Assembly: GCF_002865985.1 (NCBI RefSeq) | Contig: NZ_LNDD01000004.1 | Location: 62,001 to 126,000 of the forward strand | Reading direction: 5' to 3' | Source: Thermotoga sp. SG1 | GTDB lineage: Bacteria > Thermotogota > Thermotogae > Thermotogales > Thermotogaceae | DNA: 64,000 nt | In this document: positions 5,022 to 15,439 of the stretch, in pieces | How the letters are laid out: each line of letters starts with the position of its first letter | Numbering within the stretch: the first letter of the stretch is position 1 | Program-made: the position numbers and the translations under genes | Notes under the pieces: model-generated | What the model saw: the letters and a program-made list of their open reading frames with translations, nothing else | What the model was told of the DNA's origin: nothing | Database searches by the model: none

Positions 5022-6261
<1,240 letters not shown>

Positions 6262-6293
6262 GTCGTTTCGACATCTCGTTTTGGAGGTGGGGG

Positions 6294-8168
6294 ATGAAGA
6301 GAAGAGCAATTACGGTATTGATAATGTTTACGATATTTCTGGTCGTTGCCCACGGTAGAAATGTTATGATTCCAGAGAAACTAAAAGAAATTCCCGATGA
6401 GTATTTTAAACCTTCGAAACAACCTGGAACGCTGACAGAGTTATATTATGACACCTATGAATCTTTTTCTTATAGCGAAAAATCAAGACCAATTAGAAAA
6501 CGCGCAATTGTGTATCTTCCGTATGGATACAACGAAAACCAAAAATACGATGTGTTCTATCTTATGCATGGTGGTTGGGGTGATGAGACCTCTATGCTTG
6601 GAACTCCTGAGAAACCATCTCCCTTAAAAAATGTCATTGATAATGCAATTGCCGCAGGTGAGATCAAACCGTTGATCATAGTATGCCCAACTTATAACAA
6701 CACGAACGAGAATGGATTGGATTCTGCTAATTTTTCTCTTGCAATGCAATTGACGAGGAATTATCCTAATGAATTATTGAACGATTTGATCCCTGCAGTC
6801 GAAGGAACGTACAGCACTTACGCTGAAAGTACATCTAAAGAAAATTTGATCGCCTCCCGTGATCATCGTGGATTCGGTGGATTTTCTATGGGGGCGGTTG
6901 CAACGTGGAGGATATTCCGTTACGCTCTCGATTACTTTCGCTATTTCTTGCCAATGAGTTGTGGAACAACTCTGAACGATGAAGAAATTTTTGCTTCTGC
7001 CGAAGGACGTGATCCGAATGATTATTTTGTTTTTGTGATGACAGGAACCAACGACTTTGCGTATGCCTATGATAAAGCCAGAGTGGATCGTATGAGAAAA
7101 TCCCCTTATTTCATTGATTTCGATGAAAGTCCTGATGGTAATTTTGCGTTTCGCGTTAAGGATGGATATTCTCATGATATGCGAGCTGCAATGGAATACA
7201 TTTATAACGGATTGAAAGTATTCTGGGGAGGTGATGAAAAGACGCAGGAAAAACAAAGAGAAAATCGGCAAGTCTCGAAAAATGATCAATCCTTTAAACC
7301 TTTCACTACAGACACAAAAATTGAAGATGTGATAAAAGATCCGTCTTTTGGAAAGTTCGGAAGGCTTCTTTTCCCGACGGATAAAAGGTATTACAGTGGA
7401 GATACCCTTGGTGAGCTCTCCCTGACATGGTATGGCAAACTTAATCCGAATAAAACAGTGGAAATCGTTAATTACTTGAAAAAACGTGTCGAGTCAGGAG
7501 ATACAATTTTCTACGACATTTATTCAGATGAAGAAAAAGTCCGGGATCCTGACAAAGAGAACACGGGGTTGTTCTTCTTTCGCGGCAACAAGGGTGCAAA
7601 AACGGCCATCATCGTTGCGGGTGGTGGATTTGCGTATGTTGGTGCGATGCAGGACAGTTTTCCACATGCTCTTGAGCTCAGCAAAATGGGGTACAACGCG
7701 TTCGCTTTAATTTATCGTCCAGATCCGCAGGCAGCCTGTGAAGATCTTGCTCGGGCGATTGCTTTTTTGCATGAAAACGCCGGCGAAATCGGAATAGATA
7801 TGGAGGACTATTCTCTCTGGGGAGGATCTGCCGGAGCACGTGTGGTGGCGTGGGTAGGAAGTTACGGGACCGAAAGCTTTGGAGAAAAGAGATATCCGCA
7901 CCCAGCGATTGTTGTTATGCAGTATACTGCTCTGTCGGAAGTGACGGGAAGAGAACCTCCTACATTTGCAGTTGTGGGAACGAATGATGCGATCGTGCCA
8001 TATAAGACGATGGTAGATAGAATCAACAAGATTAAAGCAAATGGAACCGATGCGGAAATAACGATCTTTCCAGGACTTCCACATGGATTTGGTCTTGGGG
8101 AAGGAACTATCGCTGAAGGCTGGATATATGATGCTGTAAGGTTTTGGGAAAAACACATGACACGATGA
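6294..8168 (+). CDS. Secreted two-domain esterase (feruloyl-esterase-like plus acetyl-esterase-like)
   Basis: 624 residues from ATG 6294, preceded by GGAGGTGGGGG. Residues 1 to about 20 are a signal peptide (KRRAITVLIMFTIFLVVAHG). Domain 1 (about 55 to 330) is an esterase-D/feruloyl esterase fold: AIVYLPYGYNENQKYDVFYLMHGG, nucleophile elbow GFGGFSMGAVATW. Domain 2 (about 395 to 624) is a second alpha/beta hydrolase: AIIVAGGGFAYVG, elbow LWGGSAGARVVAW, and acid/His in VVGTNDAIVPY and LPHGFGLG. Both domains keep a serine elbow. The gene is visibly richer in A and T than its neighbours, which suggests acquisition. Likely removes ferulic or acetyl groups from plant polysaccharide outside the cytoplasm (inferred). 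Confidence 0.85.
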   Translation: MKRRAITVLIMFTIFLVVAHGRNVMIPEKLKEIPDEYFKPSKQPGTLTELYYDTYESFSYSEKSRPIRKRAIVYLPYGYNENQKYDVFYLMHGGWGDETSMLGTPEKPSPLKNVIDNAIAAGEIKPLIIVCPTYNNTNENGLDSANFSLAMQLTRNYPNELLNDLIPAVEGTYSTYAESTSKENLIASRDHRGFGGFSMGAVATWRIFRYALDYFRYFLPMSCGTTLNDEEIFASAEGRDPNDYFVFVMTGTNDFAYAYDKARVDRMRKSPYFIDFDESPDGNFAFRVKDGYSHDMRAAMEYIYNGLKVFWGGDEKTQEKQRENRQVSKNDQSFKPFTTDTKIEDVIKDPSFGKFGRLLFPTDKRYYSGDTLGELSLTWYGKLNPNKTVEIVNYLKKRVESGDTIFYDIYSDEEKVRDPDKENTGLFFFRGNKGAKTAIIVAGGGFAYVGAMQDSFPHALELSKMGYNAFALIYRPDPQAACEDLARAIAFLHENAGEIGIDMEDYSLWGGSAGARVVAWVGSYGTESFGEKRYPHPAIVVMQYTALSEVTGREPPTFAVVGTNDAIVPYKTMVDRINKIKANGTDAEITIFPGLPHGFGLGEGTIAEGWIYDAVRFWEKHMTR

Positions 8169-8199: not shown

Positions 8200-8679
8200 A
8201 TGAAAGCTCTTATAGTTTACTACAGCTGGTCTGGAAATACTCGCAAAATAGCAAGGTTAATCCAGGAAATAACAGGCGGAGACATCGTTGAACTAGTTCC
8301 TGAAAGGCCCTATCCTTCTTCTTACAGGGAAACTGTCGAGCAGGCAAAAGGAGAGATAAAAACAGGCTACAAACCTCCCTTGAAGACGAAAATTGAAGGT
8401 GTCGAAAAGTATGACGTCATCTTTCTTGGAACACCGAACTGGTGGGGAACGGTGGCACCACCTGTTGCCACGTTTCTTTCCCAGTACGATCTTTCTGGAA
8501 AGAAGATTGCTCCGTTCATCAGCCATGGAGGGGGAGGAAAACAGCGAATCGTGGAGGATATAAAGAGAATGTGCCCAGGTTCAAAGGTTCTGATGGAACT
8601 TGCTGTGTATTACGATGGGGGAAGAGATCTCGAAAGGGTAGTTTCAGACTGGGTCAGAAAGGTGCTAGAATCGAACTGA
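8200..8679 (+). CDS. Flavodoxin-like protein
   Basis: 159 residues. The N-terminal FMN phosphate loop is YYSWSGNTRKIARLIQE (residues about 7 to 23); the second flavin loop is GTPNWWGTVAPPVATFL with stacked Trp residues near 86 to 87; the third region is FISHGGGGKQRI. This is the flavodoxin_4/long-loop family found as electron carriers or as small NADPH-quinone/FMN reductases. GGGGAGATGAAAAT precedes the ATG. As last small gene of the carbonyl-reducing run it may deliver electrons, but no partner is identifiable by sequence alone. Confidence 0.88.
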   Translation: MKALIVYYSWSGNTRKIARLIQEITGGDIVELVPERPYPSSYRETVEQAKGEIKTGYKPPLKTKIEGVEKYDVIFLGTPNWWGTVAPPVATFLSQYDLSGKKIAPFISHGGGGKQRIVEDIKRMCPGSKVLMELAVYYDGGRDLERVVSDWVRKVLESN

Positions 8680-8702: not shown

Positions 8703-11228
8703 ATGATCAAAAGAACGTTTTTTCTGATGGCCTTTGTGCTTGTTGTTTCATCTTTTGCGGGTGTTCTTCACTTTGAACACGCCGACATCGTCTATCCGAA
8801 AGGATACTACGAGAATGCCGTTCTTGTTGGAAATATCTTTGAGACGATAAGACCGAAAGTGATAGAACTCGTCGGGAACGATCCCGGGCGGATAACGATC
8901 GTTCTCAAAGACAGGGGCACAGTCTCCAACGGCTACACGATGCCGTTTTTTCACAGAACGATCGTGATCTACCCGTGGCCACCAGAGGGCTGGAAGCACT
9001 TTCAACTTCCGCTCGAAGACTGGTACACCTACGTTCTGATCCACGAGTTCTCGCACATGTGCCATCTCACCTACCAGGGTGATCTGGAGAAAACTCTCAC
9101 AGAGCTCACAGGACTTCCCCTTTATCCACAACTTTTCAGTGGGTTGATCGAAGGAGTTACTCTTTTCAACGAGAGCTATTTTTCTCCCTCTTCCGGAAGA
9201 CTGAACAACCCTTTCTATTCGGATGGATTGTTTTATTACTCCCTTTCGAGTTTTCCCTCTCCTTCTTACAGTGAGATAGTACCAGAAGACGACTATCGGA
9301 GAGATCTTCTCTACTACAACTTCACCGGGGGGTTTTACGAGTACCTTGTAGAAACATATGGCCTTGAAAAGGTGAAGGAGTTCTTCCGTGAGTCGTCAAA
9401 GATAGCAAGTGGTGATGCCTATAGAAAGGTTTTCGGAAAGAGTTTGAACGAGATTTACACGGACTGGATCTTCTCCCTCACAGATCTCAGCTACGATCAG
9501 GGAGATCTGATTCACACAGCAGAGAACACAAGGCTTTACAAACTTGACCTCTTCGAAAACAACCTTGTGGTTTTGAGTGAAGAGTACGGTTCTTTCACCT
9601 CTTATACGGGAATGAAAAAAGAATCGCTCAGGTTCATCGATTTTGATGGAAAGAAAGCAAAGGAGATACCTCTGGAAAACGCAATCGATGTGAAGTACGA
9701 CGATGGAAGGATCTACGCCCTCTGCAAAGAACGTTCTTTTGATCGATACGAAAACGTTCTCTGGAATGTGACAGAGAAAAAGATCATCGAAAAAGGAAAC
9801 ATAAGCGCTTTTGCCGTTCAAAATGGCAGAGTTTATCTTTCTTTCTACGATACAGAATCGATGAAAAGCAGAATAAAAGGACCACAGTTTGAGTACGTGT
9901 TCGATGGGTTCATCAGGTACATGGACGCCTCTGAAGACTACATCGCACTTTTGACGCTCGACAACAAAATCATCGTTCTGGACAGAAAAACAAAAAGGGA
10001 AGTTTCAAAAATCAACACACCGGAGATGAAGGGACCGTACGTTCGCTTCTGGAGAGACGGTGTGATCTTCGTTCAGGTAAAAGGTGACTATACTATACCG
10101 TGCTACTACGATCTGAAGGAAAAAAGGCTGTATTCTCTGGCAGAGAAAACTCTTCTCAGTGATTTCCTGGTTGAAGGTGACACTCTTTACTACATCAGCT
10201 ATGTCCCGTATGGAAAAACAGGTGGAATGGGTGTGTACAGAAAGAGCCTGAAAATGAAACCCCTGAAAACAAGCAAAGAAGATTATCACTTTTCAAAGGA
10301 AGAGACTATCTTTACCGCCTCTGACGAAACTTCGTTCAGGATAAAGAAATTTCTCAGGCCCGTTCTACACGTGTCTCTGTACTTACCAGAAGTGAGAGAG
10401 AAAGAAGTGGTTCACAACTTTTCTTTTCTTCTCGGTTTTTCCAGCGTGGAAAACGATGTTCAGTTCTTTCTCATGCCGAACGTGAACTCGAAAGACGGAT
10501 TCAGCAAGTACGTCGGATTTTCTATGGTGAAGGATTCTTTCACGGCCTATGGAAGTTATGTCTATCCACACGGAATCTACAGCCTTGGACTCTCTGTAAA
10601 CGCTGGAAAGTTGATGCTTTCTCCATCTTCTGAACTGGAACTTGGTCTGGGAATGAGTTTTGACTCGATCGGCTCTGGTGTTTCAAACCCGCTGGACGTC
10701 ATTCCAAACGTGAAATCAAAGAACGTAGGAGCTGGTCTTGGGTTAAAAACGTATCTTTTTGATCTTCCAGTTTCTCTGAGGACTTACCTTACGTTCAGCT
10801 CGGAAGATATCGAAAATCTCTTTACACTGGACAGCCTTTACTCTTTCAACGAGCTGAAAATCGCCCTGGGGAAAGAAAGCAGTCTTTCTGTGAGATTTAA
10901 CCTTCAGCTGGCAGATCTGGACACTTTAAACTATGATATATCGCTGGCACAGACACTCTTTGAAGATCGTGCAGAACTCTTCAACGGACTTGTCCTTGTG
11001 AAAAACACCGGAAACACGATCGGTATAACATCTCTTGAACTGAATGGAGGCCAGAGAGTCAACGCTCTTTACGATCACATCTTTGTGGAGACCTACACGA
11101 AGGGCTTCAAATTCTATCTAACTGCCGGGGTGTTTCTCTCCTCTTCGATGAATCCAGCCTTCTACGTCGCTTTCAGTTTCAGCCCGAACGGATTTCCCTC
11201 CTTTCCGGTTTTCATCAATCTTAAGTGA
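8703..11228 (+). CDS. Large exported protein: HEFSH metallopeptidase-like domain, propeller-like region, barrel-like C-terminus
   Basis: 841 residues from ATG 8703 (the frame is open back to 8442 inside the flavodoxin gene, but only the 8703 start gives a signal peptide, KRTFFLMAFVLVVSSFAGVL). At about residue 115 the motif VLIHEFSHMCHL gives the zinc HExxH; a downstream FNESYF may supply a third ligand as in gluzincins. Residues about 285 to 560 contain repeated short beta motifs (RFIDFDGKK, NKIIVLDRKTKR) like a TolB-type propeller. The final 270 residues alternate hydrophobic and polar residues and end in aromatic-rich strands (FYVAFSFSPNGF), as in outer-membrane barrels. Thus a possible toga-anchored protease; function inferred. 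Confidence 0.7.
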   Translation: MIKRTFFLMAFVLVVSSFAGVLHFEHADIVYPKGYYENAVLVGNIFETIRPKVIELVGNDPGRITIVLKDRGTVSNGYTMPFFHRTIVIYPWPPEGWKHFQLPLEDWYTYVLIHEFSHMCHLTYQGDLEKTLTELTGLPLYPQLFSGLIEGVTLFNESYFSPSSGRLNNPFYSDGLFYYSLSSFPSPSYSEIVPEDDYRRDLLYYNFTGGFYEYLVETYGLEKVKEFFRESSKIASGDAYRKVFGKSLNEIYTDWIFSLTDLSYDQGDLIHTAENTRLYKLDLFENNLVVLSEEYGSFTSYTGMKKESLRFIDFDGKKAKEIPLENAIDVKYDDGRIYALCKERSFDRYENVLWNVTEKKIIEKGNISAFAVQNGRVYLSFYDTESMKSRIKGPQFEYVFDGFIRYMDASEDYIALLTLDNKIIVLDRKTKREVSKINTPEMKGPYVRFWRDGVIFVQVKGDYTIPCYYDLKEKRLYSLAEKTLLSDFLVEGDTLYYISYVPYGKTGGMGVYRKSLKMKPLKTSKEDYHFSKEETIFTASDETSFRIKKFLRPVLHVSLYLPEVREKEVVHNFSFLLGFSSVENDVQFFLMPNVNSKDGFSKYVGFSMVKDSFTAYGSYVYPHGIYSLGLSVNAGKLMLSPSSELELGLGMSFDSIGSGVSNPLDVIPNVKSKNVGAGLGLKTYLFDLPVSLRTYLTFSSEDIENLFTLDSLYSFNELKIALGKESSLSVRFNLQLADLDTLNYDISLAQTLFEDRAELFNGLVLVKNTGNTIGITSLELNGGQRVNALYDHIFVETYTKGFKFYLTAGVFLSSSMNPAFYVAFSFSPNGFPSFPVFINLK

Positions 11229-11283: not shown

Positions 11284-13056
11284 ATGGTCATAACAAAGAG
11301 ACACGCCGTCGTTCTAAAGAGGCTCTACGAAAAGGGAGAGGAGTTCAGTGTGAGTGACTGGGAAGCTTTCGATAGAGGAACGCTGTGGCATCTTGAACTT
11401 GCCGGCCTGGTCAAACCCGTTGGTGTTAAGATGTACGATCTGACGTTCTCAGGAAACATCCTCGGGGAACTCCTCACGAACATGATCAAAGAAGGCGTTC
11501 TGAAAGATCCAGAGGAATGGGACGACTCGTTCAGATGGATCGGATCTGAAGTGATCTCCATGATCAGATACTCCAAACTTGCCCAGTCGAGGGTGAAGGG
11601 AGAGATTGCCGAGGCTCTGGAAGAGCGGGGATTTGTGAAGGAAGGAACCCTTACACCTCACGCTTATACGCTAGATGAGATCTACAACGCTTCCCAACCG
11701 AGGATCGTGGTGAATTCGCAAGTAGCGGAATATTTGAGAAAAATGGTGGAGGGACCTGGTGAGTCGAGTAAACTTCCAGTGGGCGAAAACGAACTCTTTC
11801 AACTTGAATCGATGAGGATGATCGCTTTTTCCGTTCCAAAATCTGATGTATACGCTCTCACCGGGCTCGGGCAGCAGATCAGAGCTGCTCTCAGGAAAGG
11901 ACTCGTTGTGACAGATGAAGTGATCCTCGATGAACTCGTTCTGGACACAGTTGCAAAAGCCTGCGAAGGAAAAGAATTGAGCGATTTCGAGAAAAACGTT
12001 CTTCTGGAAAGAGGACTCATTGACTGGACGGGAAGCCTTCATCCGATGGCAGAACACCTCTATCTTGCCTGGAAGATATACAGAAAAGGACCCTATCTGA
12101 TGACTCCAGCGTTCCAGATATCCGAAGATGAAGCACGACTGCTGATGTTGATCGAGAAGCTCTGGAAAAGGAACGAGCAAGACAGGGACGTGTTCCCGGA
12201 ACCAAAACAGATAGAGGAAGAAGTGGACTGGGAATGGAAAAGAAAAGATCTCACGGTGAAACTTGCACTTTACAACCTGGAGGGCTTTGGTCTTTTGAGA
12301 TCCAGAGAATACAGAGACGGTGCAAGAAGAACGCTCGTGTACGAGTTAACCAGTTACGGTGAAGAGGTACTCGAGGATCAGAAAAGGAAACTGAGGAGCA
12401 TTTCCGCCACCGGTGTAAAATCCATAACCATGACGAGAAAAGAATTCGCCGCGCCGAACGTGGAATGGTACGAACAGGCAAAAAAGGAAGGACTCGTCAG
12501 CGACGCTGCACCAACGTCTTCTGGCCTTCTCTACGCGAGACTTTCTGTGGAGGTGGAAAGAAAACCCCTCATAACGAATGTGGAGATGAAAGTCCTCAGG
12601 AAGGTACCTTACAAAGCGGGCATATTCGTTGAGGATCTCGATCTGTCCGAGGAAGAAAGGATCGCACTCGACAGCCTTGAAGCGAAGAATCTGGTGGAGA
12701 TTCTGCCCACCGGTCTTGTCACGCTTACAGACGCTGGTCAGCTTATGAAGAGAGCTCTGTCAGCCGCTTCTGATGACGTAGAAGCTCCTGTCACACCCCT
12801 TGTGATAAGACTTCTTCAGGCTATAAGAACGCACGGTGGTCTTCAGATGAGAGAAAAGAGGATCAGGATAAACCCGGAAAGCTGGAAGGCGGTGGAAGAA
12901 GAAGTCGGAGTTGATCCGGAAACCTTCGACGATGCGTTGAACCTTGCCAGGATATCCAGGTTCATCTCGGAAAATGCTCTGACTGAGGCAGGAGTAGCAC
13001 TTCTTCAGGCGGTTGATGAACTCGCAAAGAAAGAATATCCCTGGGCTGAATTTTAA
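11284..13056 (+). CDS. DUF505 family protein
   Basis: 590 residues, acidic and without membrane segments. It begins MVITKRHAVVLKRLYEKGEE after AAAGGAGGCGGCAGG, a convincing start. I recognise it as DUF505, a family restricted largely to Thermotogae and some archaea. The sequence is a string of repeated winged-helix-like units: similar patterns of a hydrophobic helix pair followed by GLV/LTxxG (for example LELAGLVKPVGVKMYDLTFSG, YNLEGFGLLRSREY, LVEILPTGLVTLTDAG) recur about every 100 residues, suggesting several tandem DNA- or protein-binding wHTH folds. Single-gene transcript ended by a strong hairpin. Biological role unknown. Confidence 0.75.
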   Translation: MVITKRHAVVLKRLYEKGEEFSVSDWEAFDRGTLWHLELAGLVKPVGVKMYDLTFSGNILGELLTNMIKEGVLKDPEEWDDSFRWIGSEVISMIRYSKLAQSRVKGEIAEALEERGFVKEGTLTPHAYTLDEIYNASQPRIVVNSQVAEYLRKMVEGPGESSKLPVGENELFQLESMRMIAFSVPKSDVYALTGLGQQIRAALRKGLVVTDEVILDELVLDTVAKACEGKELSDFEKNVLLERGLIDWTGSLHPMAEHLYLAWKIYRKGPYLMTPAFQISEDEARLLMLIEKLWKRNEQDRDVFPEPKQIEEEVDWEWKRKDLTVKLALYNLEGFGLLRSREYRDGARRTLVYELTSYGEEVLEDQKRKLRSISATGVKSITMTRKEFAAPNVEWYEQAKKEGLVSDAAPTSSGLLYARLSVEVERKPLITNVEMKVLRKVPYKAGIFVEDLDLSEEERIALDSLEAKNLVEILPTGLVTLTDAGQLMKRALSAASDDVEAPVTPLVIRLLQAIRTHGGLQMREKRIRINPESWKAVEEEVGVDPETFDDALNLARISRFISENALTEAGVALLQAVDELAKKEYPWAEF

Positions 13057-14432: not shown

Positions 14433-15403
14433 TCAGACGGGTAAATTAATGTTCTGTACAGGATCTGGTCCTGGCCTTGCAAAAAGAAATCCCTACATCA
14501 ACTCGATACCAATCTTTTGCAAAGTTTCGTACTCTTCGGTTGTTTCAACACCTTCTGCTATCACCTGTATACCAGATTTGCTGGCAGCGGAGAACAGTGC
14601 CTCGATCATATGACGTTTCAGCCAGTCTTTATGAACGTTTCCGATAAGACTCATATCGATTTTTATAATATCCGGCCTCAATTCTGCTAATCTTTTCAAA
14701 GAGGAAAAACCAGTGCCAAAATCGTCTATGACTATCTTGAATCTTTTCTTTTTCAAATGTTCAACAACGGAAGTCTCCAGATGCTCCATTTCGCTTTCTA
14801 ATTCCAGTTTATCTGCTATTCTTCTGTAAAGGAAATCTGGATCGAGGAGGACACTGGGAGAGAGTTTTCTAGAGCTTTTTCAATAGCAAGTTCGCTCAAT
14901 TCGAGAAGTACATCCAGTCTTTTTGCCAGTTCAACCAGACGAACAGATGGTACCACTTGTCCATTCTAATCCACCCCCCTAGAAAGACACTCGTAGCTAT
15001 ATATTTCACCAGTTGAGGTGTTTACAATAGGTTGGAAGTAGGTCACAAGAGATTCGTTTTCCAGGACAAATCTCAGAATGTCAGCTTTTCTCAGATCAAG
15101 CCAATATTGGAATGTTCGCATCTTTTTCAAAGAGCGCAACGAGATCGTTTCATCCAGTTCTAGAGGGAGTATCATTATTCTTTGTTTTTCTAGTTCTGTA
15201 AATTCTTCTGAGGAAAGGGCAAGATCAATGAATTCATCGAATTTCATTTCGAAAGAGATGTTGTCTTCTGAGAAAGAAATCTCTACGTCGTGTTTAAAAA
15301 CTTCCTGGAACTTATGAAGGAGGTAATTGAGATAGTCGGCGTGAGGAACGAAAACGATGATTCTTTTCGCTGAAGAGGGGAAATTAGGGACAATTGATCC
15401 CAT
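14433..15403 (-). pseudogene. Broken EAL-domain (cyclic-di-GMP phosphodiesterase family) gene
   Basis: Start ATG 15403 (MGSIVPNFPSS) after GGGGGTG. An N-terminal region of about 115 residues of unknown type is followed by an EAL domain: TYFQPIVNTSTGEIYSYECLSR (ECL in place of EAL), later DDFGTGFSSLKRLAELRPDIIKID, VIAEGVET, and the closing GFLFARPGPDPV. The reading frame is interrupted by TAG after SRGVD (14966 to 14968), a frameshift with small loss near 14868 (AIEKALE / KLSPSVLLDPDF), and TAG in GIELM*GFLFARPGP (14493 to 14495). The intact protein would have been a c-di-GMP hydrolase or receptor. Now most likely inactive. Confidence 0.85.
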
Positions 15404-15439
15404 AATCAATCACCCCCTTCAAAAAGTTCAATATACGAC

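Follow-up and report, generated by a model that had tools for sequence, protein, structure and literature searches.

A likely gluzincin-type zinc peptidase joined to a propeller and a predicted outer-membrane barrel in Thermotoga sp. SG1

What kind of protein would carry a zinc peptidase motif near its N-terminus, a propeller in its middle and a membrane barrel at its end, and what would such a protein do in the envelope of a bacterium? The question is raised by the open reading frame at 8703..11228 (+) of the window, the stretch of 64,000 nucleotides from Thermotoga sp. SG1 that was analyzed here. The frame encodes a protein of 841 aa (P0001) followed by a stop codon. A GTG at 8442 would give a longer frame, but the ATG at 8703 is favored because a GGGGG stretch resembling a ribosome site precedes it, the protein then opens like a signal peptide, and the alignments with close relatives begin at residue 1. 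This signal-peptide-like segment (residues 1-19; 8703..8759, +) was recognized by eye, with hydrophobic N-termini also found in the relatives, and by eye no lipobox cysteine was seen at the N-terminus of P0001.

Searched as a single sequence, P0001 returned nothing useful from Pfam, NCBIfam, PDB sequences, PADLOC or plasmids, and the best Pfam E-value for its propeller was 0.096. As these searches were uninformative, the domains were detected through profiles. The family profile, A1, is an alignment of 48 in-phylum rows including P0001; 47 of these are 767-896 aa long and the remaining row is truncated at 645 aa. A second profile, A7, holds 49 peptidase domains drawn from 80 aligned rows (the 48 in-phylum rows and 32 from outside the phylum). 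Averaged across the remaining 47 rows of A1, identity to P0001 is 0.47 in the peptidase domain, 0.30 in the propeller and 0.23 in the barrel, which makes the peptidase the most constrained part of the protein and the barrel the least.

The first domain (residues 20-262; 8760..9488, +) is likely, judging from these alignments, to be an active zinc peptidase of the gluzincin type. Its HEFSH motif at residues 114-118 (9042..9056, +) supplies two predicted zinc-ligand histidines and the general base glutamate, and the HE..H pattern is invariant in 48/48 in-phylum and 32/32 outside rows. By chance, an HExxH appears in 1.3% of 20,000 shuffles of P0001. E150 (9150..9152, +) is the predicted third zinc ligand and Y205 (9315..9317, +) the predicted catalytic tyrosine, and the complete set of H114, E115, H118, E150 and Y205 is retained in all 80 rows. 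Gluzincins of clan MA are characterized by an HExxH together with a downstream glutamate as third ligand, and the family of P0001 has both, the second histidine and the glutamate being separated by 30-35 residues in every row of A1 (48/48).

Comparison of A7 with solved gluzincins points the same way. The chain of the cold-active M1-like aminopeptidase 3cia was matched at E 8.3e-5, and collagenase G at E 0.003. The 'EG' motif of A7, which contains E150, aligns with the 'NEG' of 3cia, and Y205 aligns with the tyrosine of its 'PYVKG'; the tyrosine of the 'PY' motif has a catalytic role in M1 enzymes such as 3cia. In the alignment with A7, the HExxH part of 3cia stands apart from the rest and scores close to zero, since its spacing differs from that in A7. 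Pfam Peptidase_MA_2 matches 20/49 members of A7 at E 0.1, with a best value of 4.2e-12; P0001 itself has no match to this family at the same threshold. The peptidase region is poorly modeled by AlphaFold2 from 10 sequences, with block means of 22-48 over residues 1-210. The original prediction had read HEFSH as a peptidase motif, as the invariant residues now bear out, and had proposed structure prediction as its check. That check returned a barrel, as anticipated, and placed the zinc-site region at pLDDT <50 (residues 9-131 and 137-210).

Following the peptidase is a β-propeller (residues 263-519; 9489..10259, +), and here the model is confident: from residue 271 to 520, 19 of 25 ten-residue blocks reach a pLDDT of at least 80. 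The modeled domain superimposes on the solved propeller 7nyq_A with Z 18.1 and rmsd 3.2 over 228 aligned residues. At the same position the A1 profile matches PH0594 (4hxe, E 3.4e-8) and TolB (7mx5, E 1.7e-4). Together these matches uphold the TolB-like repeats of the original prediction. The outside relatives give stronger propeller matches than A1, with their profile reaching the WD-40 repeat protein 2ymu at 1.6e-61 and TolB (1crz) at 4.1e-34; the NCBIfam TolB model is found in 26/32 of them (E 0.01) and Pfam PD40 in 23/32 (E 0.001). TolB, with which P0001 shares this type of propeller, is a soluble protein that has neither a peptidase nor a barrel.

The C-terminal part (residues about 553-841; 10359..11225, +) is predicted to be a 16-strand outer-membrane barrel. 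AlphaFold2 was run on the full P0001 (10 sequences) and on the C-terminal part alone (9 sequences), and both runs gave 16 strands with modest confidence, in agreement with the barrel-like end of the original prediction. The barrel was folded alone because propeller proteins dominate the Foldseek top 50 for the full model; the resulting model has a mean pLDDT of 63.4 and a pTM of 0.46, with 2 of the 16 strands within a stretch below 50. The C-terminus was also said to end in aromatic residues, which is imprecise: the tail is aromatic-rich and ends ...FPVFINLK, and 17/48 rows of A1 have F or Y as their final residue. A reading of P0001 as a TonB-type receptor was set aside, as no evidence for it was found.

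Structural searches place this barrel among outer-membrane proteins of several classes, and the information they yield is torn between an Omp85-type barrel and one that has no kinship with Omp85 and is simply an anchor or porin-like, in which case P0001 would be a barrel-tethered peptidase. We regard the latter as improbable. The first Foldseek hit of the barrel model is the porin OccD1/OprD (E 4.6e-3), and the top 50 also hold Occ porins, Vibrio OmpT, autotransporters and a mitochondrial Tom complex, with no match at E <0.001. Against this, about 21 of the same 50 are BamA, TamA, FhaC or CdiB by title. In VIA-align the three leading structures are BamA barrels (best 7nrf_A, Z 9.6, rmsd 3.7, 114 aligned residues, which cover about half of the P0001 barrel), yet the autotransporter EspP (2qom_A) ties with them at Z 9.4, rmsd 4.9 and 155 aligned residues, so that the ranking is tied across barrel classes. 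In these alignments residue 423-426 of BamA, which we take to be its first barrel strand, falls on the first strand of the P0001 barrel model.

Compared directly, the sequences give no link between the in-phylum barrels and BamA. PF01103 (Omp85) matches 0/48 members of A1 at E 0.1, and the motif [VILMF]RG[YFLHW] occurs in the last 260 residues of 1/48 of them vs 21/32 outside relatives; the conserved sequence by which Omp85 barrels are recognized is absent from P0001. Porin_5 is weakly matched by 1/48 members of A1 (E 0.068), a further point for an unrelated barrel. A BamA would combine POTRA domains with an Omp85 barrel. The Pfam listings of P0001, A1 and the outside set A4 contain no POTRA family, and the one Omp85 match of the genome lies in another gene (G000:C3:21479-22345). 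Such a match is present in 88/103 phylum genomes.

The outside relatives, which follow the same gene plan, have a recognizable Omp85 barrel in the same place. Pfam PF01103 is found in 7/32 of them (E 0.001) and NCBIfam Omp85_fam in 9/32 (E 0.01), and their profile matches the solved structures of BamA (8xnb, E 3.6e-10) and TamA (8us4, E 7.7e-7). A model built on the outside barrels finds 15/61 in-phylum members at E <0.01, the best of 93 reversed controls being 0.053; the barrel of P0001 alone is not matched (E 0.77). Moreover, profile intermediates bridge the two groups. Non-overlapping sets with no shared rows, five of them from within the phylum, were compared in local and global modes with reversed controls. 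In global mode, the own group of P0001 links to the L021-L030 group at a probability of 98.3, the L021-L030 group to the outside barrels at 82.1, and the outside barrels to Thermotogota BamA at 99.6, the reversed controls staying at 0.3 for every link. Compared directly, the own-group barrels reach the outside barrels at 0.6 locally and 0.0 globally and BamA at 0.5 and 0.0; the other four in-phylum sets reach BamA at 3.0 at most. A Thermosipho-type set links to the own group only (65.0), and a deep in-phylum set is joined to the outside barrels at 96.0 and weakly to the own group at 15.4. A weak positive between A1 and outside barrels (50.2 global, 13.6 local) was dropped, since the A1 profile held L044 and other deep members, and the comparison of the deep set with A1 barrels went unused as the two shared rows. 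The barrel of P0001 is thus likely to descend, with much divergence, from an Omp85 barrel, the in-phylum barrels being reached solely in steps.

How widely is the gene found? A single-sequence search with P0001 matches 56/103 phylum genomes at E 0.001, its own included, and a scan of named genomes (nine loci) places relatives in Fervidobacterium, Thermosipho, Kosmotogaceae and other Thermotogota. The A1 profile at E 1e-5 matches 219/390 genomes, made up of 99/103 in the phylum and 120/287 outside it, the weaker rows including some that may rest on the propeller alone. A single match is present in 80 of the 99 phylum genomes and two or three in the other 19. A scan of viral contigs gave no relative of P0001. 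The 32 outside proteins were picked among the higher-ranking matches and so do not sample the 120 at random; all of these top-ranking proteins carry the complete catalytic set, and 4/32 match Peptidase_MA_2 (E 0.001). As a group, their sequences indicate the same gene plan of catalytic residues, TolB-type propeller and Omp85-type barrel.

When the 80 peptidase domains are arranged in a tree, P0001 belongs to an in-phylum clade of 39 rows (100/99). The 9 other in-phylum rows sit among the outside rows, and several branches are long. The phylum therefore holds more than one lineage, and to call the gene almost universal is to speak of all of them together. Rows from the genus of P0001 group with another family of the order (f3) and not with the other genera of their own family (f1), as if, on the sequences, the gene had moved between the genus and f3. 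A broken piece of the peptidase domain, 74% identical, lies at about 85186-85812 of G060:C9 (L020), in a genome that belongs to a different family of the order, and may be a transferred remnant; the same genome has a separate divergent copy at G060:C1:789534-791459. Another genome holds two copies of the family, at G071:C1:1228255-1230819 and 1233473-1236076 (L052 and L015), about 2.7 kb apart from end to start.

The domain order had been put forward as that of no described family, which holds only in part. A TolB-like propeller on an Omp85 barrel was defined as the WD40-Omp85 subfamily in 2014 by Heinz and Lithgow (PMC4104836), so the order is not without precedent. P0001 likewise has a TolB-like propeller N-terminal to a predicted C-terminal barrel and no POTRA, and the available text of that paper accepts Omp85 subfamilies that lack POTRA. 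Two differences set P0001 apart: its barrel can no longer be recognized as Omp85 by sequence, and its propeller is preceded by a gluzincin domain, a domain of which the accessible main text makes no mention, words beginning with 'peptidase' being absent from it. The same text ties a 'Metallo' subfamily to PF00149, a domain different from the gluzincin of P0001, and notes that in early-branching phyla, Thermotogae among them, one BamA is often the sole Omp85 member encoded (PMC4104836).

Other systems resemble P0001 in part. PlpD, a patatin-like Omp85 protein, joins a hydrolase at its N-terminus to an outer-membrane barrel of 16 strands, much as is predicted for P0001, and its enzyme domain is kept in the periplasm (PMC11116518); unlike P0001 it has a patatin-like domain, is an accepted Omp85 protein and, in the available part of the source, has no named propeller. 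BepA is a periplasmic M48 zinc peptidase that, according to the accessible text, acts on LptD at BAM (PMC8423444). It shares with P0001 a link between a zinc peptidase and outer-membrane protein quality control, proposed in our case, and it is a separate protein, whereas P0001 has peptidase, propeller and barrel in the same chain. On the plasmid pSR116 of Salinibacter ruber, the 'basic secretory protein-like protein' WP_118831798.1 (L171:3878-5779; a CDS of 1,902 bases, 633 aa) is matched by the outside relative L125 over residues 64-568, peptidase and propeller; by its size it probably lacks a barrel. No description of the three-part plan of gluzincin, propeller and Omp85-type barrel was found in a literature search drawn mostly from outside subscription journals. 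The available text of a study of the toga lists six porin candidates and contains neither 'peptidase' nor 'proteas' (PMC3387000). One candidate name for the counterpart in T. maritima is TM1013, an identity that we do not claim, and a literature search on that name found no paper.

As far as sequence and prediction go, the domains and their order support an outer-membrane-anchored peptidase; the original prediction had proposed a peptidase or assembly factor anchored in the toga. As to its function, we see an even chance that P0001 is a zinc peptidase anchored in the outer membrane, facing the periplasm and engaged in processing or quality control of envelope proteins. The protein would be exported and its barrel inserted into the outer membrane, with peptidase and propeller lying beneath it in the periplasm, a placement suggested by analogy with PlpD. 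The propeller would bind or gate client polypeptides, and the peptidase would, by analogy with BepA, cut those clients of the envelope that are misfolded or need processing. The barrel, as a diverged Omp85 relative, would place the enzyme at the site of outer-membrane protein insertion. P0001 might then be the one-chain counterpart of a BepA-like zinc protease, a BamB- or TolB-like propeller and an Omp85 barrel. A stand-alone housekeeping role fits the presence of the gene in 99/103 phylum genomes, mostly in one copy, and the retention of the neighbors tested only within the genus. A broader and more tentative claim, to which we lean less than to its converse, is that many bacterial families and nearly all Thermotogota share a self-contained outer-membrane protease, one chain joining an active gluzincin to a propeller gate of the TolB/BamB type and a barrel derived from Omp85, that serves BepA-type quality control in the Thermotogota envelope. 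If true, the Omp85 scaffold would have one more use in addition to insertion, secretion and lipid enzymes of the PlpD type, and many Omp85-linked proteins treated as propeller-barrel fusions would really be outer-membrane zinc peptidases. The toga-bearing phylum, in which little is understood of how the envelope is assembled, would also gain an almost universal candidate for a quality-control protease.

The peptidase may instead face outward. It could be exposed at the surface or on the toga and feed on proteins, with the barrel anchoring or exporting it and the propeller gating substrate in the manner of prolyl oligopeptidases. Among the outside relatives, 12/32 match the propeller model DPPIV_N and 3/32 Peptidase_S9_N (E 0.001), and the accessible text on a Fervidobacterium describes keratin degradation by cell contact with membrane-associated proteases (PMC13157175). 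The families named there are others (M16, M23, M32, M38, M42, M48, M55, S8 and S16), and the enzyme domain of PlpD lies on the inner, periplasmic side, which by analogy speaks against exposure of the peptidase. A near-universal gene, single in most of the genomes that have it, is moreover unlike a niche enzyme, and we consider a role in feeding unlikely. Least probable is that P0001 is chiefly an assembly factor of the BamA/TamA type, with the propeller in place of POTRA and the peptidase only trimming or serving as scaffold, since the BamA-BamB fusion of which WD40-Omp85 is called reminiscent (PMC4104836, available text) and the tied lead of BamA barrels in the structural ranking are set against a separate Omp85 gene in the genome and a pattern of conservation, peptidase highest and barrel lowest, that runs opposite to the one expected if the barrel carried out insertion.

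The surroundings of the gene were compared across 72 in-phylum loci, mostly with only about 1.5 kb of flank, and no gene neighborhood pointing to outer-membrane protein assembly was found. The flavodoxin ORF (8200-8679) stands beside the gene in 1/72 loci (L003), a glutamate-dehydrogenase-like ORF in 2/72, both of the same genus, and the 590-aa ORF that follows the gene (11284-13056) in 5/72, all of the same genus. The 636-aa ORF (6258-8168, +) has no match beside the gene in the 72 loci; it lies just upstream of the flavodoxin and by eye looks like two fused esterase/hydrolase domains. Elsewhere in the genome, a separate frame of 417 codons also has propeller matches. In a genome of the same genus, the counterpart of the 590-aa ORF is in several pieces (L003:168-1438), as if broken or mis-assembled. 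Finally, two short ORFs on the reverse strand of the window, 14493-14789 and 14966-15409 (-), both match one 370-aa ORF of a same-genus genome (L008:4088-5200), and the region 14493-15409 (-) looks like a split gene of the EAL type, the EAL domain being recognized by eye.
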